A stretch of 64,000 nucleotides of DNA, taken from the NCBI GenBank assembly GCA_003353795.1, contig PIVY01000003.1, forward strand, positions 1-64,000, given 5' to 3'. Positions within the stretch are counted from its first letter, which is position 1, and every line of letters starts with the position of its first letter. Source of the stretch: a bacterium (GTDB taxonomy: Bacteria > Krumholzibacteriota > Krumholzibacteriia > LZORAL124-64-63). Both the position numbers and the translations under genes were made by a program. Below, one piece after another: positions 42,432 through 51,726 of the stretch. Below the pieces are notes generated by a model. It was not told the DNA's origin. It ran no database searches and was given only the letters and a program-made list of their open reading frames with translations.

Positions 42432-45400
42432 TCATCCCTTCAGCGCCCGCTCCTCGCGCCAGGCGTAGAGCACCGGCACCACGAAGAGCGTGAGCAACGC
42501 CATGAGCATACCACCGAATGCGGGGATGGCCATGGGCACCATGATGTCGGCGCCGCGGCCGGTCAATGTGAGCACCGGCAGCAGGGCGAGGATGGTGGTG
42601 GCCGAGGTCATCAGGGCGGGGCGCACCCGGCGGCAGGCGCCGGCGATGACCTTGCGGCGCACGTCGTCACGGTCGACCGCGGTCCGGTCGCGGAAGCTCT
42701 GGCCGAGATAGGTGGCCATGATCACGCCGTCGTCCGTGGCGATGCCGAAGAGTGCGATGAAGCCCACCCAGACCGCCACCGAGAGATTCACGGTGTCGAT
42801 GCGGAAGAGTTGGCGCAGGTCGACGCCGAAGGGCGCCAGGTCCAGGAACCAGGGCTGACCGTAGAGCCACACCAGCCAGAAGCCGCCGGCCCAGGCCACG
42901 AAGATTCCGCCGAAGACCATGAAGGTCACCGCCAGCGACCGGAACTGCAGGTGTAGCACCAGCACGATCAAGAGCAGCACCACCGGCAGTACCAGCATGA
43001 GCGTTCGCTCGCTGCGAATCTGATTCTCGAAGCTGCCCGCGAAAGTCCAGCTCACGCCCTCGGGAATGACCAGGTCGCCGTCGGCACGCAGCCGCTCGAG
43101 ATGGTCGCGGGCCTGCGCCACCACATCCACCTCGGCGACGTCGGGTTGCTTGTCGAAGATCACGTAGCCCACCAGGAAGGTGTCCTCGCTCTTGATGGCC
43201 TGGGGACCACGCACGTAGCGCACGTCGGCCACCTCGCCCAGAGGCACGGCCACGCCGGAGGGAGTGCGGACCTCCACGGCGGCGAGATCTTCGAGGGAAT
43301 CACGACGTTCGCGCGGGTAGCGCACGCGCACCCCGTAACGCTCGCGGCCTTCCACGGTGACGGTGGCTTCGCGGCCGCCGACCGCGATCTGCAGGGCGTC
43401 TTGCACCTTGCTCACCGTGAGCCCGTGGCGGGCCAGCCGGTCGCGGTCGGGCACCATCTCGAGGTAGGGTTTGCCCACCACGCGGTCGGCCACCACGGTG
43501 GCCGGATTGATGGTCGGCACATCCTTGAGCGCGGACTCGATGGCCAGGGCCGCGGACTCGATGGCCTCCAGCGTGGGTCCCTTCACCTTCACGCCCATGG
43601 GCGCCCGCATGCCGGACTGGAGCATGACCAGGCGGGTGCTGATAGGCTGTAGCTTGGGGGCGCCGGTGGTGCCGGTAAGCCGGGCAACCGCCACGATCTC
43701 GTCCCAGATGTCGTCGGCGGAGCGGATGTGGTCGCGCCACTGGCGGACCCGATTCCCGTCGGCGTCGCGACCGTATTCCGGCACGTAGTTGATCACGGTC
43801 TCGATCATGGAGATGGGCGCCGGGTCGAGCGCGGTCTCGGCGCGACCGAGCTTCCCGACCACCTGATCCACCTCGGGCACCGTGAGCATGGCTTGGTCGA
43901 GTTTGCGCAGTACATCCATGGCCTCGCCCAGGCTGGCATGAGGCATGGTGGTGGGCATGTAGAGGAACGACCCCTCGTCCAGAGGGGGCATGAACTCCTT
44001 GCCCAGGCCGGGAAACGCGTGACGGGGACCGTTCCAGAGGCGGGCCCAGAACGTGCCGTCGCCGCGATCGCCGCCCACGCCGGGCAGCGGCGCGAACACC
44101 CGGTCGAAGCCGAGCCAGATCGTGGCGCCGCCGAGAACCACCAGGATCGGCAGCAGCAGGAACCGGCGCTTGCGCTGCAGGGCCGCCGCCAGGAGCCGCG
44201 GATAGGCGCGCTGGAATGCAGCGAACAGCAGCAACAAGCCGGCCACCGCCAGGGCCACGAACACTAGACTCACCAGCCACGATCGGTCGAGCCCCAGCGG
44301 GCGCCAGCGGTCGGCCAGGATCAGCAACGCCGTCACGGCCACCACGGCGCTCAGCACGCGACCGCGCAGCCAGCCAGGCAGGCGATGGACGGCGGCCTGC
44401 AGCCAGTCCGGACCGGGCCTGGTGCGCCGGCCGAGCACCAGATGTGCCATTGGCGGCAGCGCCACCACGGCCAGCAGCAGAGCGGCGACCAGGGCGAAGG
44501 TCTTGGTGAAGGCCAGCGGCCGGAATAGCTTGCCCTCCGCCGCGGTGAGCGCGAATACAGGAAGAAAACTGAGCACGGTGGTCAACAGCGCCGTGATGAT
44601 GGCCGGAGCCACCTCGGCGGCGGCGTCCCGGATCACCAGTCGACGGTCGGCATCGAGGTCGGACTCGCCGAGCCGGCGCTGGACGTTCTCGATGAGGATC
44701 ACGCCCATGTCCACCATGGTGCCGATGGCAATGGCGATGCCCGACAGCGCCACGATGTTGGCCTCGACCCCCACGGTCTTCATGGCCACGAAGCAGAGCA
44801 GCACGGCCACCGGCAGCAAGCCCGACACGAGCAGACTGCCGCCCAGGCTGCGCAGCATGAGCACGATCACCAGGACGGTGATCAGGATCTGCAACGTGAG
44901 CGCTTCACCCAGGGTGTCGAGGGTCTCGTGGATGAGCCCGGTGCGGTCGTAGAAGGGCACGATGGTGACCTTGCTCACGGTCCCGTCGGCCAGGGTGCGC
45001 TCGGGCAATGCGGGCGCGATCTCGGCGATGCGGGCCTTCACCCGTTCGATGGCCGCCAGGGGATTCTCGCCATAACGAACGACGACGATGCCGCCGGTCG
45101 CGTCGGCGCCCCCCACGTCGAGGGCGCCGCGGCGCAGGGCCGGCCCCCGCGTGACGTGGGCGATCTCGCCCACGGTGATCGGCACGTTGTCGCGCACGGC
45201 GACCACGCTGCGGGCGATGTCGTCGGTGCTGCGATAGAAGCCGGTGCCACGCACCACGTACTCCACGTGGTTGATCTCCATGGTGCGGGCGCCCACCTCG
45301 CGGTTGCCCTCGCGCACGGCACGGACGACCTCGTCGAGGTCCAGTTCGTACAGGCGCAGGGCGTCGGGATCCACCTCGACCTGGTACTCGGACCGATGGC

Positions 45401-45995
45401 CGCCCACCGAGGCCACCTCGGCGATTCCCTCGGCCGCCAGCAGCGCGTCGCGAACCTGGAAATCTTGGATGGTCCGCAGTTCCTGGGGATCCCAACCACC
45501 GGCCGGTCGGCCCTCGGCAGAACGACCCTCCAGGGTGTACATGAAGACCTGACCGAGCGCCGTGGCGTCCGGACCAAGGGCTGGCTGCACCTCGCCCGGC
45601 AACGTACCGGCGGGCAGGCTGGCGAGCTTCTCGAGAATGCGCGAGCGCGAATCGTGGAAGTCGGCGCCCTCCTCGAAGATCACGTAGATGGTGGAAAACC
45701 CGAAGAAGCTGTAGCTGCGCACCGTGCGCACCATGGGCACTCCGAGGAGCGCCGACGTGAGCGGGTAGGTGATCTGATCCTCCACGTCCCGCGGCGAACG
45801 ACCGGACCATTCGGTGAACACGATCTGCTGGTTCTCGCCCAGGTCAGGGATGGCGTCCACCGGCACGGGATCGCGCGGCACGCCGCCCAGATCCCAGTCG
45901 AACGGCGCCACCAGCACGCCCCAGCCCGCCAGCATGAGCACGCCCAGCAGCACCACCAGCTTGTTGTCCAGGCAGAAGCCGATGAGTCGGGTCAC
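42432..45995 (-). CDS. cusA: CusA/CzcA-type heavy-metal efflux RND permease
   Basis: VDAIPDLGENQQIVFTEWSGRSPRDVEDQITYPLTSALLGVPMVRTVRSYSFFGFSTIYVIFEEG; GLGKEFMPPLDEGSFLYMPTTMPHAS. Confidence 0.93.
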   Translation of the reverse strand: MTRLIGFCLDNKLVVLLGVLMLAGWGVLVAPFDWDLGGVPRDPVPVDAIPDLGENQQIVFTEWSGRSPRDVEDQITYPLTSALLGVPMVRTVRSYSFFGFSTIYVIFEEGADFHDSRSRILEKLASLPAGTLPGEVQPALGPDATALGQVFMYTLEGRSAEGRPAGGWDPQELRTIQDFQVRDALLAAEGIAEVASVGGHRSEYQVEVDPDALRLYELDLDEVVRAVREGNREVGARTMEINHVEYVVRGTGFYRSTDDIARSVVAVRDNVPITVGEIAHVTRGPALRRGALDVGGADATGGIVVVRYGENPLAAIERVKARIAEIAPALPERTLADGTVSKVTIVPFYDRTGLIHETLDTLGEALTLQILITVLVIVLMLRSLGGSLLVSGLLPVAVLLCFVAMKTVGVEANIVALSGIAIAIGTMVDMGVILIENVQRRLGESDLDADRRLVIRDAAAEVAPAIITALLTTVLSFLPVFALTAAEGKLFRPLAFTKTFALVAALLLAVVALPPMAHLVLGRRTRPGPDWLQAAVHRLPGWLRGRVLSAVVAVTALLILADRWRPLGLDRSWLVSLVFVALAVAGLLLLFAAFQRAYPRLLAAALQRKRRFLLLPILVVLGGATIWLGFDRVFAPLPGVGGDRGDGTFWARLWNGPRHAFPGLGKEFMPPLDEGSFLYMPTTMPHASLGEAMDVLRKLDQAMLTVPEVDQVVGKLGRAETALDPAPISMIETVINYVPEYGRDADGNRVRQWRDHIRSADDIWDEIVAVARLTGTTGAPKLQPISTRLVMLQSGMRAPMGVKVKGPTLEAIESAALAIESALKDVPTINPATVVADRVVGKPYLEMVPDRDRLARHGLTVSKVQDALQIAVGGREATVTVEGRERYGVRVRYPRERRDSLEDLAAVEVRTPSGVAVPLGEVADVRYVRGPQAIKSEDTFLVGYVIFDKQPDVAEVDVVAQARDHLERLRADGDLVIPEGVSWTFAGSFENQIRSERTLMLVLPVVLLLIVLVLHLQFRSLAVTFMVFGGIFVAWAGGFWLVWLYGQPWFLDLAPFGVDLRQLFRIDTVNLSVAVWVGFIALFGIATDDGVIMATYLGQSFRDRTAVDRDDVRRKVIAGACRRVRPALMTSATTILALLPVLTLTGRGADIMVPMAIPAFGGMLMALLTLFVVPVLYAWREERALKG

Positions 45996-47764
45996 GAGCC
46001 GCCCTCCTCGGCGCCGATTCGCGCGACCTCACTGCCGCAGCGCAGCATCATGGAGCCGTAGTAGGGGTTGGCCGTGGTCGGGTCGCGCTGGATCCAGTAC
46101 GCGCCCTTGTTGTCGAAGGCCATGGGACAGTGGAACCGTCGCACGGCGCCGTCCTCGCCGTAGCCGGCGGCCTCGAGAGTCGCCCACAGCAGGTCGGACA
46201 CCGGCTCGAAGGCCTGCCGACGGGCCGCGATGTCGCCGGCGGCGGCGAGAGTCGAGGCGGCGGGATGCAGGTCGGCGGGCACCGCGGCGCCGGCGCCGTG
46301 AAGCGCCTTGGCCAGGGCGGCGGCCGCCTGCTCTGAATCCTCGGCGGCGTCGGCCGCCAGGGCAGTCTGGAGGTCCAGGTAGCGGCCGAGCAGGTCGGGC
46401 GCCACGGCCAGGAATCCGTCGGGCACCGTGATCGATTCGGGCTCGGGGGCCGCCGGCGCCGACCCGGGTTCACCGTGATGGTGACCGCCGCCGGATCCGC
46501 CGCCATCGGGCAGCATCATGCTGGGCCGAGCCTGGATCTGCAGCTCGCTGTCGAGCTTGAAGGCGCCGTGCACCACGACCAGTTCGCCCTCGCCCAGGCC
46601 GTCGCTAACCAGGTACCAGTCGCCGGCTCGCGGACCGAGCGTCACTTCGCGACCGCGAAAGATCGGCTCCTCACCCGGCTCGCGCAGGTAGACCACGGCG
46701 CGTTCGCCGGTCACGAGCGGCGCGGTGGCCGGCACCACCAGCGGCGGCATGGCATCGTCGCGGCCGGCGCGTGGCCGACCGTCGGCGGCGAGTTCCACGA
46801 GCACTCGTCCCCGGGCCAGCATGCCCGGGCGCAACCGCCCGTCCGGGTTGTCGGCTTCGAGTCGAACCGACACGGTGCGCGTGCGGTCGTCCACCACCGG
46901 ATCGACGAAGACGATGATGCCGTCGAACACCTCGCCAGGCGAGGCGGTGACCGTGAACGCCACCGACTGCCCCGCTGCGAGCCAGGGCAGGTCTCGCTCG
47001 TAGGCGGCGAGCTCGACCCAGACACTGGAGAGGTCGGCAATGGTCAGCAGGGGTTGACCGGTGGCGACGTACGCGCCCTCCACGGCGTCCTTGCGCACCA
47101 CGGTGCCGGCCACCGGTGAGCTGATGGTGATGCGATCGCCACCCTCGGCGGCGACCTGATCGGGATCGACGTCCCACAGGCGCAGCCGTTCCCGCACCGA
47201 ACGTAGGTTGGCCTCGGCGCCCGGCTCGCCGCGTTCCGCTGCGGCGCGGGCGGCCAGCAGTTCGGCCCGAGCGCGATAGAGATCCGGCGAGTAGACATCG
47301 GCCAGAGGTTCGCCCTGCCGCACCTCGCGACCGGTGAAGTCCACGTGCAGGCGGTCGAGCCGGCCCGGCACCCGCGCGGTGATTACCCGTTGCCGAGTCT
47401 CATCGGCGGTGACCTTGCCGACGAGCGCCAGTTCCCGCGCCACGAAACGGCGCTCGATCGGGGCGGTGGTGATCTCGGCCAGCGCCACGGCACTTTTGGA
47501 AAGCCGCAGGTCGCGCGGGCCGAGTCCCTCGCTGGTGTCCGACATCAGGGGAATCAGGTCCATGAAGCAGATGGGACACTGGCCGAACTCCGGCAGCTGG
47601 ATCTGCGGGTGCATGCTGCAGGTCCAGGCCGTGGGCTGGTCGGCGGTCGCCATGTCATGCGCGGGATCACCGGCGGTACCACCACCGCCGCGCAGGACGA
47701 ACCCGAGCAGGAAGGCGGCCACGATGGCGGCGACGGTGATGGCGGTCCGGTAGCGGCGGAGCAT
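45992..47764 (-). CDS. cusB: Efflux RND periplasmic adaptor (CusB-like) with N-terminal heavy-metal-binding motif
   Basis: TCSMHPQIQLPEFGQCPICFMDLIPL; ITARVPGRLDRLHVDFTGREVRQGEPLADVYSPDLYRARAELL; C-term FHCPMAFDNKGAYWIQRDPTTANPYYGSMMLRCG. Confidence 0.92.
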   Translation of the reverse strand: MLRRYRTAITVAAIVAAFLLGFVLRGGGGTAGDPAHDMATADQPTAWTCSMHPQIQLPEFGQCPICFMDLIPLMSDTSEGLGPRDLRLSKSAVALAEITTAPIERRFVARELALVGKVTADETRQRVITARVPGRLDRLHVDFTGREVRQGEPLADVYSPDLYRARAELLAARAAAERGEPGAEANLRSVRERLRLWDVDPDQVAAEGGDRITISSPVAGTVVRKDAVEGAYVATGQPLLTIADLSSVWVELAAYERDLPWLAAGQSVAFTVTASPGEVFDGIIVFVDPVVDDRTRTVSVRLEADNPDGRLRPGMLARGRVLVELAADGRPRAGRDDAMPPLVVPATAPLVTGERAVVYLREPGEEPIFRGREVTLGPRAGDWYLVSDGLGEGELVVVHGAFKLDSELQIQARPSMMLPDGGGSGGGHHHGEPGSAPAAPEPESITVPDGFLAVAPDLLGRYLDLQTALAADAAEDSEQAAAALAKALHGAGAAVPADLHPAASTLAAAGDIAARRQAFEPVSDLLWATLEAAGYGEDGAVRRFHCPMAFDNKGAYWIQRDPTTANPYYGSMMLRCGSEVARIGAEEGGS

Positions 47765-47774
47765 CTCGCTTCTC

Positions 47775-49025
47775 CTAGTTTCGGTAGGCGGCCGGCACGT
47801 GGCCGGTCGCCTCGTCGAGATCGGCCGTCGCCACGACGAGATCGTGACGGGCGGCCAGCAGTCCATGCTCGAGTTCCAGCAGGGTTCGTTCGGCGGCCAG
47901 CACGTCTGCGAAGCTCGCACCGCCGGTCTGGTATCCCGCCAGGACGGCTTCGTAAGCCTGGCGCGCCCTCGGCAGGAGTTCGCGGTCGTGCAGGTCACGG
48001 CGTCGTTCGGCATCGCGCAGGGCCACGGCGGCCCTGGTACGCAGCGCGGTCAGCGCCTGATCGCGGGCCACGCGGGTGGCGTCGAGGGAGCGGGCGCGGG
48101 CCTCGGCGGCCGCGGTGGCGCCGTCGTGCTTGCCGCGCCAGAGTGGAACGGTCACGCCGAACTTGGCGACCCAGGCGTCCTTGCCGCTGTCGGGCATGGT
48201 CGGATCGACCGCGTCTCCGACCTGGATCCAGTCGACCCCCAGCGATAGAGCCGGCCAGCCACCGCGACGAGCCGCCTCGGCCTCGAGCCGGACCGCCGTC
48301 GCGTCGTGGTCGAGGATCTCCAGTTGCGGATGAACGGCCGTCGTATCGGCGGCGGTCGCGCCGACCTCGGGAGTGAGGTTCGCCGGCAGTTCCAGCGCCG
48401 CCCGGGGATCCCGACCGAGCGCAGCGTTGAGATTGGCCGCAGCGGCGAGGGTCTCGTCGGTCAGGCTGCGCAGCCGGTCCTCGAGACGCGCTATCTCCAG
48501 CTGAGCCTGCAGCAGATCGCCGTACCCGTTCTGACCGGCCTCGTATCCCGACCGGACCGCGCCCTCCAGCGAGCGCACGATCTCCAGCTGGCGGGCGGTG
48601 ACATCCAGGGTCTCGGCCAGCCAGGCCGCCTGAGCCCAGGACCGGCGCACGTTGGCCGCGACGGTCACCGCCACCTGACGCTGGCCTGCGGCGGCCATGT
48701 CGACCCGCGCGGCCGCCGCATCGCCCCGTGCTCCCAGGGTGCCGGGCCAGGGCAGCGGTTGTTGCAACGACAGCACGCGCTGCTGGGGACCGACCCGGGT
48801 CTCCACCGGCTCGATCATCTCGCCCCACCGGAACACGGGATCAGGCAAGGAACCCACCTGATCGACCCGGGCCACGGCCGCCTCCCAACCGGCATCGGCC
48901 GCCGCCAGCGCGGGATGCTGGTCCATGGCGTACGCCACCAGTCCGTCCAGGTCCTGGGGATCGGGGAGTTCGAGAGTTTCAGCCGCCGCCGAGGCCGCGG
49001 CCAGGAGCAGGAGGATCGCCACCAC
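47775..49025 (-). CDS. TolC-family outer-membrane efflux protein (CusC-like)
   Basis: GTG start; LDGLVAYAMDQHPALAAADAGWEAAVARVDQVGSLPDPVFRWGEMIEPVETRVGPQQRVLSLQQPLPWPG. Confidence 0.88.
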   Translation of the reverse strand: MVAILLLLAAASAAAETLELPDPQDLDGLVAYAMDQHPALAAADAGWEAAVARVDQVGSLPDPVFRWGEMIEPVETRVGPQQRVLSLQQPLPWPGTLGARGDAAAARVDMAAAGQRQVAVTVAANVRRSWAQAAWLAETLDVTARQLEIVRSLEGAVRSGYEAGQNGYGDLLQAQLEIARLEDRLRSLTDETLAAAANLNAALGRDPRAALELPANLTPEVGATAADTTAVHPQLEILDHDATAVRLEAEAARRGGWPALSLGVDWIQVGDAVDPTMPDSGKDAWVAKFGVTVPLWRGKHDGATAAAEARARSLDATRVARDQALTALRTRAAVALRDAERRRDLHDRELLPRARQAYEAVLAGYQTGGASFADVLAAERTLLELEHGLLAARHDLVVATADLDEATGHVPAAYRN

Positions 49026-49126
49026 TAGCGGTCCCTCCCGGATTGCTCCTCGCGCGGGCCCCGCAGGGCCAGCCAGATGAGGACGGCCAGCACGGTCGCC
49101 GCCAGGATATTCAGTATCAGCGTCAT
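49025..49126 (-). CDS. 33-aa single-TM small protein, first gene of the efflux operon
   Basis: MTLILNILAATVLAVLIWLALRGPREEQSGRDR; AAGGTGA SD upstream; TAG overlaps the GTG start of the TolC gene by 1 nt. Below the ORF-track length cut-off. Confidence 0.6.
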   Translation of the reverse strand: MTLILNILAATVLAVLIWLALRGPREEQSGRDR

Positions 49127-49161: not shown

Positions 49162-49177
49162 TGCATGGATGGGGCCA
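49162..49177 (-). promoter_or_regulatory. Candidate sigma-54 (-24/-12) promoter for the efflux operon
   Basis: Minus strand TGGCCCC-ATCC-ATGCA against TGGCACG-N4-TTGCW; GG and GC with correct 10-nt spacing, ~25-nt leader to ATG. Confidence 0.55.
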
Positions 49178-49226: not shown

Positions 49227-49274
49227 ATGGAGAATATTCTCTATCGTGATTCATGGGTCCATGGAGAATATTCT
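49227..49274. repeat. Two direct copies of ATGGAGAATATTCT containing the palindrome AGAATATTCT; candidate regulator sites
   Basis: Copies at 49227-49240 and 49261-49274, 34 bp apart; first extends to GAGAATATTCTC. Confidence 0.75.
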
Positions 49275-49297
49275 TCACATCCTGGAGGAGGCGGCGC

Positions 49298-50356
49298 GTG
49301 ACTCGCATGCTCAAATCGTATGGTCTGGTGGCCCTGATGGTGCTGGTCGTCACGCTGATGCACTACAACACCGCCATGCACATCCACGCCGCCCACGGCA
49401 TCTACCGGCGACTCTACTACTTCCCCATCATCGTCGCCGCATTCCGGGGCGGCCGGACCGCCGGCGTGGTCACGGCCCTGGCGATCTGTCTGCTCTATAT
49501 CCCCCACGCCTTCGGACTGATCGGCCACGACCCGGCGCCAAACCTGGAAAAGATTCTGGAGATGGTGCTCTACCTGGCCGTGGGTCTGGTCACCGGCACC
49601 CTTGAGGACCGCGACCGCCGCACGCGCCGTCGCCTGCAGGATTCCCTCGACGAACGCGAGCGACTGCAGCAGGAACTGGTGCGCCGCGAACGGCTGGCCG
49701 CCGTGGGCCAGCTCTCGGCCGGGCTCGCTCATGAGATCCGCAATCCCCTGGCGAGCATCAAGGGCGCCACCGAAGTCCTGCAGGATCACGAGCCGGCCGA
49801 CTCAGGGCGGGGCCGCATGTTGACCATCGTGCGCGAGGAAGCCGCCCGCCTCAACGACGTGCTCACCCGCTTCCTGACCTTCGCCCGCCCCGCCACCGGC
49901 GACCGCACGCGCTTCGATCTCGCCGACGAGGTGACCCATCTCGCCGGGTTGCTCGACCACCGCGACGGGGCCCCCACCGTCCGCTATGAACCGACCGGCG
50001 AACCGTTCCCCATCGACGCCGACCGCGACGCCATCCGCCAGGTCATGCTCAACCTCGGCCTCAACGCCGCGGAGGCCGCCGGCCCGGCGCCCGAGGGGAC
50101 GGTCGAACTGTCTCTCGCACGCGACGGCGATACCCACCGGATCACCGTCACCGACAACGGCCCCGGTTTCACGACCGCCGCGGTGGCGAACCTCGGCACG
50201 CCGTTCTTCACCACCCGCGACGGCGGTACCGGGCTGGGCCTGGCCACGAGCCTGCGCATCGTCCGCGATCACGTCGGCGACCTCACCGTGGACGAGGCGC
50301 ACGCGGGCGGTGCTCGGGTCGTGATACGATTGCCTGCCGCCACGGGAGGTGCCTGA
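49298..50356 (+). CDS. Sensor histidine kinase with N-terminal TM domain
   Basis: GTG start with GGAGGAGG SD; AVGQLSAGLAHEIRNPLASIKGATEVL..RQVMLNLGLNAAEA..DNGPGF..GTGLGLATSLRIV. Confidence 0.93.
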   Translation: MTRMLKSYGLVALMVLVVTLMHYNTAMHIHAAHGIYRRLYYFPIIVAAFRGGRTAGVVTALAICLLYIPHAFGLIGHDPAPNLEKILEMVLYLAVGLVTGTLEDRDRRTRRRLQDSLDERERLQQELVRRERLAAVGQLSAGLAHEIRNPLASIKGATEVLQDHEPADSGRGRMLTIVREEAARLNDVLTRFLTFARPATGDRTRFDLADEVTHLAGLLDHRDGAPTVRYEPTGEPFPIDADRDAIRQVMLNLGLNAAEAAGPAPEGTVELSLARDGDTHRITVTDNGPGFTTAAVANLGTPFFTTRDGGTGLGLATSLRIVRDHVGDLTVDEAHAGGARVVIRLPAATGGA

Positions 50357-51726
50357 TGGCGCGCGTGCTGCTCATCGACGACGACCGCAACCTGCGCGAG
50401 GTGGTGGGGTTCATGCTGCGCGAAGCCGGCCACGAGGTGGACGACGCCGGGTCGGCCGAGGAAGGCCTCGCACTCTTCGGACGCGCCGGCACCGACCTGG
50501 TGCTCACCGACATGAAGATGCCCGGCCGCAGCGGCATGGATGTCCTGCGCGAGGTCCAGCCCACGGGCACTCCCGTGATCCTGCTGACGGCCCACGGAAC
50601 CGTGAGCCAGGCCGTAGAAGCCATGCGCCTGGGAGCGTCATCTTACCTGCTCAAGCCCTTCGAACGTGCCGAGTTGCTGGTGACAATGGAGAAGGCCCTG
50701 GCCGAGGGCGCCATGCGCCGCGACAACGCCAACCTGCGCGATCTCCTGCGACGCAAGCAGGCTGACGGCGGCATGGTCTACCGCTCCGACGCCATGGCTC
50801 GCCTGATCGACGAGGCCCGACTCGCCGCCGCCAGCGACGCATCGATTCTCGTGACCGGCGAGAGCGGCACCGGCAAGGAACTGATCGCGCGACTGATCCA
50901 CGACGGCAGCCCACGCTGGGAAGGTCCCTTCGTGGCGGTCAATTGCGGCGCCATCGCCGGCGACCTGGCCGAGTCGGAACTCTTCGGTCACCAGCGGGGC
51001 GCATTCACCGGCGCCGACCGCGACCACCCCGGCCGCATCCGCGCCGCCGACCGCGGCACCCTGCTCCTCGACGAGATCGGCGAACTCCCCACCGGGCTCC
51101 AGCCCAAGTTCCTGCGGGCTCTCGAGACGCGGCAGATCGATCCCGTCGGAGCCACGGCTCCCGTTCCCGTGGACTTCCGGCTGGTGTGCGCCACCAACCG
51201 CGACCTGGTGGCTGCGGCCCGCGACGGCGGGTTCCGCGAGGATCTCTACTACCGCATCGCCATCGTCACGCTCCTCGTGCCGCCACTGCGCGAGCGCCCC
51301 GAGGACATCGCCCCCATCTGGGATCACTTCACCCAGTTGCACGGCGGCGACGAGGTGACCACGTCGTCGCAGTTGCGAGCCGAACTCGAATCCCGCCCAT
51401 GGCCCGGCAATGTCCGCGAACTGCGCAACCTGAACCAGCGGCTCGTGGTTCTGCGTCGCACCGATGGCCTGGCCCTCGCCGACCTCGAGCGCGTCGAGCA
51501 AAGCGGAATCAGTCGCCCACGGATCGACGCCGTGACGGCTGCCGGCGACGACCGCCCCCTCCTCGGCGCACTGCCCGACGACCACCTCGATCTGCCCGGA
51601 CTCGAACGCGAGGTGATCCGCCGCGCCCTCGCCCGCTTCGACGGCAACAAGTCGCGAACCGCGGAGTACCTGGGGATTCCGCGACATGTCCTCGTATATC
51701 GACTCAAGAAGCAACGGGAGGCATGA
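50356..51726 (+). CDS. NtrC-family sigma-54-dependent response regulator
   Basis: Receiver DDDRNLRE..LTDMKMPGRSG; GESGTGKELIARLIH; ELFGHQRGAFTGAD; Fis-type HTH at C-terminus. Confidence 0.95.
   Translation: MARVLLIDDDRNLREVVGFMLREAGHEVDDAGSAEEGLALFGRAGTDLVLTDMKMPGRSGMDVLREVQPTGTPVILLTAHGTVSQAVEAMRLGASSYLLKPFERAELLVTMEKALAEGAMRRDNANLRDLLRRKQADGGMVYRSDAMARLIDEARLAAASDASILVTGESGTGKELIARLIHDGSPRWEGPFVAVNCGAIAGDLAESELFGHQRGAFTGADRDHPGRIRAADRGTLLLDEIGELPTGLQPKFLRALETRQIDPVGATAPVPVDFRLVCATNRDLVAAARDGGFREDLYYRIAIVTLLVPPLRERPEDIAPIWDHFTQLHGGDEVTTSSQLRAELESRPWPGNVRELRNLNQRLVVLRRTDGLALADLERVEQSGISRPRIDAVTAAGDDRPLLGALPDDHLDLPGLEREVIRRALARFDGNKSRTAEYLGIPRHVLVYRLKKQREA

Follow-up and report, generated by a model that had tools for sequence, protein, structure and literature searches.

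The window (the whole 64-kb stretch of DNA that was analysed) contains two divergent operons with a pair of palindromic sites between them. The minus-strand operon encodes a small ORF followed by TolC, CusB and CusA homologs, and the plus-strand operon encodes a histidine kinase and an NtrC-type response regulator. The features are as follows, with the two sites described as the predicted enhancer sites UAS1 and UAS2.

42432–45995, minus strand: CusA-like heavy-metal RND pump (TIGR00914, 745.5 bits against a cut-off of 701.45)
45992–47764, minus strand: CusB-like adaptor with a heavy-metal-binding domain (HMBD) and DUF3347 (Pfam HlyD_D23, HMBD and DUF3347)
47775–49025, minus strand: TolC/CusC-like outer membrane efflux protein (Pfam OEP, 2.1e-40)
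49025–49126, minus strand: 33-aa predicted single-pass membrane small ORF MTLILNILAATVLAVLIWLALRGPREEQSGRDR, first gene of the efflux operon, with a stop codon overlapping the TolC start; it may encode a small protein associated with the pump
49162–49177, minus strand: predicted sigma54 −24/−12 promoter TGGCCCCATCCATGCA (GG-N10-GC) from a sequence scan, facing the efflux operon
49227–49242, no strand assigned: UAS1 ATGGAGAATATTCTCT, proximal predicted enhancer site with the 12-bp palindrome GAGAATATTCTC; kept in G001, G002, G003 and other genera
49261–49276, no strand assigned: UAS2 ATGGAGAATATTCTTC, distal predicted enhancer site, its centre 34 bp from UAS1; the spacing is the same in G001 and G003
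49298–50356, plus strand: membrane histidine kinase (Pfam HisKA and HATPase_c above cut-off; start GTG)
50356–51726, plus strand: NtrC-type response regulator (Pfam Response_reg 7.9e-26, Sigma54_activat 6.8e-63, HTH_8 7.1e-13)

The first-pass annotation had reported identical 14-mers 34 bp apart, and the counts bear this out. The window has two copies of ATGGAGAATATTCT and no more, at 49227–49240 and 49261–49274 (34 bp from start to start), and the expected count from 100 dinucleotide shuffles of the window was 0. At the first copy the palindrome is perfect over 12 bp (GAGAATATTCTC, 49230–49241); at the second, GAGAATATTCTT at 49264–49275, it has one mismatch. As had also been noted, 24 bp separate the end of the second copy from the kinase start codon, the GTG at 49298, which is preceded by GGAGGAGG at 49284–49291. 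The genome had been described as otherwise very GC-rich; the region has about 70% GC, but the spacer that holds the pair has 45–48% GC, so that some AT-richness there is to be expected.

The whole assembly to which the window belongs (G000; 5,721,045 bases in 953 contigs, 86% complete) was scanned for the core sequence AGAATATTCT, which was found only at these two places, and the reversed control sequence had no match anywhere in the assembly. Many random copies across the genome had been named as an observation that would speak against an operator, and the absence of AGAATATTCT from the rest of the 5.7 Mb disposes of that concern. The same scan had been proposed as a way of defining a regulon. 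It established that the pair is unique, but beyond the pair it returned just scattered 12-mers with one or two mismatches, and the regulon detectable in G000 is essentially this single locus. No bacterial paper printing GAGAATATTCTC was found in the literature searched, and the matches to AGAATATTCT that were listed had eukaryotic, viral or clinical titles, with no bacterial operators among them.

The CusA-like pump keeps Met at all three aligned Cu(I)/Ag(I)-site positions (flyMp, pisMie and rlvMlq in an alignment to CusA structures), which we take to correspond to the triad M573/M623/M672 in E. coli numbering. Relative to the inferred start of the efflux operon, the two sites are at about −84 and −118. 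The counterpart of TGGCCCCATCCATGCA in the same-genus genome G003 is TGGTCCATCCCTTGCG, at an equal distance from the sites. A scan of the region for sigma70 promoters and terminators returned none. Small ORFs similar to the 33-aa ORF occupy the corresponding position in G002 and G003, and that of G003 is readable in the sequence.

On the other side of the spacer, the N-terminal membrane domain of the kinase is histidine-rich and DUF4118-like (27.2 bits, just below the cut-off of 28.4), and comparison with relatives showed that its histidines are conserved. The response regulator has the sigma54-contact loop GAFTGA (within HQRGAFTGAD in the translation of 50356–51726) and a Fis-type HTH with the recognition helix IPRHVLVYR. 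The PRHxLxYR helix is kept in nearly all regulators that are associated with the motif, down to 43–45% overall identity. In G038, where the regulator has the helix ISRNTLIYR, the motif is absent upstream of the kinase.

Orthologs of the regulator, about 55–77% identical, are present in about 25 relatives. The first-pass annotation held that absence of the repeats from orthologous intergenic regions would count against an operator. Most orthologous spacers carry them; exceptions include genus g11 and G005, in which the helix is kept in the regulator ortholog yet the motif search before the kinase was negative. Both sites are present in G001 and G003 of the same genus with the 34 bp spacing, 33–34 and 67–68 bp before the kinase start. 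Alignment of G000 and G003 revealed an uninterrupted TGGAGAATATTCTCTATC amid diverged sequence, and the longest block of conserved spacer sequence includes the first site. The spacing between sites in other genera is mostly 19–23 bp, often 22, and reaches 41 bp in G047. The operator GGAGAATATTCTCC has eight matches (at most one mismatch) in the four genomes of the genus, every one of them located at this system or at one of the targets predicted for it, and the reversed control gave no match in the same four genomes.

The sites were also found at loci with other gene arrangements. The kinase–regulator pair at L127, L129 and L131 lies downstream in the efflux operon or away from it, and the site is before tolC, not the kinase. 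In G001 the kinase–regulator pair is not beside the pump and the sites are before the kinase; on another contig of this genome a site precedes an HMBD protein and then cusBA. A site precedes a DUF3347 protein and a Met/His-rich protein in G009, and a site with one mismatch lies 128 bp before an HMBD protein in G013. The motif and the regulator are kept without adjacent pump genes at L145, at L212 and in G001. At locus L056 of G028, upstream of 5209, the gene that follows the sites and a sigma54 element is not tolC but encodes a His-rich DUF3347-like protein.

A sigma54 element (score of at least 8 of 12) was sought 40–120 bp from the nearest site in 17 target promoters, taken from G000 and its relatives. 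Such an element was detected downstream of the sites in 16 of the 17 promoters compared with 1.2 expected (1000 shuffles, maximum 5), although these promoters are related and hence are not 17 independent cases, so that the shuffle statistics overstate their independence. The distance between site and element is within about 1 bp of 71–72 in nine promoters and 60–61, 83, 92–96 or 104 in others, values that differ by about one helical turn. No clear sigma54 element was found at the distant loci L162, L217 and L218. The gene for sigma54 itself, rpoN (Sigma54_DBD), was not found in the 86% complete G000 assembly. It is present in 56 of the 58 genomes searched, including all 39 well-completed ones and G001–G003 of the same genus, and its absence from G000 is probably an assembly gap.

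Public genome contigs were then scanned blindly with the pattern GAGAATATTCTN{4,34}AGAATATTCT. The scan returned at least 119 stretches, and 80 loci were analysed for members of the regulator family (E < 1e-90) and/or CusB homologs (E < 1e-45). Among the matches listed, 13 of the 24 loci with a GC fraction of at least 0.50 carry one or both, compared with none of the 36 loci below 0.45, and most of these 13 have the pair immediately in front of tolC, the kinase or the regulator. The organisms among those listed include Geobacter sp. OR-1, an uncultured Geobacter, Deltaproteobacteria and Proteobacteria MAGs, and a Zixibacteria MAG. On the Desulfobulbaceae contig L171 the pair is 60-odd bp from a partial regulator match. 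Most AT-rich matches (Bacteroidota, Treponema and Firmicutes) lack homologs of the genes of this system and were dismissed as chance occurrences or different elements. At the Geobacter-like loci L151 and L198, the sites are followed by the gene for an MTCGSC metal-binding protein or by that for an FtrD-like protein accompanied by MacB-type ABC genes, which suggests a different metal-handling target under the same regulator family.

We propose, with a probability of roughly 0.87, that the palindromes are paired enhancer (UAS) sites of the 50356–51726 regulator, which would activate the sigma54 promoter of the efflux operon. The assignment of the sites to this regulator, made in the first-pass annotation, is supported at the sequence level because the sites are conserved, because they follow the regulator or its efflux targets even where these are unlinked, and because the blind scan leads to this regulator and these genes in distant phyla. 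The membrane kinase (49298–50356) would sense a metal, probably copper or silver, and phosphorylate the regulator (50356–51726). Each site would be bound by one regulator dimer through its Fis-type HTH, and the bound dimers would assemble the AAA+ hexamer. Presumably by DNA looping, the hexamer would contact sigma54-RNA polymerase at 49177–49162 and open the promoter, and as a result the small ORF, tolC, cusB and cusA would be transcribed. The site nearest the kinase start may in addition repress or autoregulate the kinase operon. Such autoregulation, already raised in the first-pass annotation, is plausible, but in this genome it probably does not proceed by sigma54 activation since the second site is only 24 bp from the start and no −24/−12 element is found there. 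The control would most likely be negative here because no −24/−12 element fits in the 24 bp before the start codon.

Autoregulation could also be the main function of the sites, by promoter occlusion or by control of the regulator level, with control of efflux being secondary. The closeness of the second site to the kinase start is consistent with this explanation, as is G001, which keeps both sites before the kinase although it has no pump genes next to them and a search for a divergent GG-N10-GC element was negative. The class relatives G047 and G051 moreover have a forward sigma54-like element about 60 bp before the kinase. We nevertheless consider it improbable, given that the site precedes tolC and not the kinase at L127, L129 and L131 and that the sigma54 elements point towards the target genes.

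An operator does not always belong to the regulator encoded beside it, and the palindromes might be bound by another transcription factor, for instance a repressor of the spacer, instead of this response regulator. This is very unlikely: the motif is found together with this regulator family across several phyla, it accompanies the regulator at L145, L212 and G001 in the absence of adjacent pump genes, the recognition helix is conserved along with it, and its position with respect to the −24/−12 element fits a bEBP enhancer. The low GC content of the spacer (just 45–48%) and the many AT-rich genomes that have pairs without this gene system would agree with chance palindromes or a repetitive element. 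However, the pair is unique in the genome with none expected from the shuffles, and its conservation beside the same genes across genera and phyla already refutes this explanation, to which we assign a negligible likelihood.

The enhancer arrangement that we favour resembles several known systems. Upstream of glnA, paired dyad sites approximately 80–120 bp from a −24/−12 promoter are bound by dimers of NtrC, a REC-AAA+-HTH protein. The sites described here are also paired and at a comparable distance from a predicted −24/−12 element. However, the operator GGAGAATATTCTCC differs, the targets are metal efflux genes and not nitrogen genes, and the regulator misses the NtrC equivalog cut-off (345 vs 558.6 bits). 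CusR of E. coli is an OmpR-family regulator that acts with sigma70. The locus is similar to E. coli CusRS–cusCFBA in having two-component genes divergent from a CusCBA-type operon and a pump with the same methionine triad, but the regulator has HTH_8 and a sigma54 AAA+ domain and no OmpR-type winged helix.

A further parallel is ZraSR (HydHG) of Escherichia coli and Salmonella, which likewise combines a metal-linked kinase with an NtrC-family sigma54 response regulator. The ZraSR regulator binds the spacer between its own operon and a divergent target (zraP/zraSR) (PMC8249747; ChIP-exo, PMC7657598), and here too the predicted regulator site is in a spacer shared with a divergent metal target. 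In contrast, the target there is the chaperone ZraP and here it would be the TolC-CusB-CusA pump, the equivalog cut-offs are missed (296 vs 760 bits for ZraR and 166 vs 479 bits for ZraS), and the membrane sensor region of the kinase is DUF4118-like. The sigma54 and response-regulator regulomes of Desulfovibrio vulgaris have been mapped by comparison of genomes or by experiment, with bEBP regulators, palindromic sites and sigma54 promoters (PMC4641369, PMC3333781). The terms efflux, copper, heavy metal and zraR are absent from the main text of PMC4641369, and copper and heavy metal are absent from PMC3333781. NtrC/ZraR-like metal two-component systems are already known; the operator proposed here appears undescribed in the bacterial papers of the literature searched.

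We give about even odds to a wider proposal, that the locus belongs to a cross-phylum sigma54 copper/silver regulon. This regulon would comprise PRHxLxYR regulators, a paired GGAGAATATTCTCC operator whose distance from the promoter shifts by approximately whole helical turns, and a histidine-rich DUF4118-like kinase as the metal sensor. Its targets would be CusCBA pumps, HMBD and DUF3347 proteins, and Geobacteraceae-like FtrD-like/MacB-type genes. The analysis provides a specific predicted operator for an uncharacterised family of metal-response two-component systems in uncultured lineages, whose targets it makes predictable from sequence. The comparison also appears to connect copper/silver-type efflux with a DUF4118-like kinase, and it places CusCBA-type pumps under predicted sigma54 control and not that of CusR and sigma70. 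The helically phased distances between sites and promoters provide a natural series for tests of enhancer geometry.

Two other types of paired sites were encountered in the blind scan. TGAGAATATTCTCA-like pairs with a spacing of exactly 26 bp are present in Marinilabiliales-type Bacteroidota and one member of the Spirochaetales (L150, L163, L168, L174, L182, L186, L188, L194, L196, L199, L202, L213 and L220), mostly without two-component or efflux homologs, and look like an unrelated conserved operator. Many AGAATATTCT pairs with a 30 bp spacing, several per genome, were found in two Prevotellaceae/Bacteroidaceae MAGs (L147, L153, L154, L159, L178–L180, L187, L216 and L223), resembling a dispersed regulatory element or repeat.
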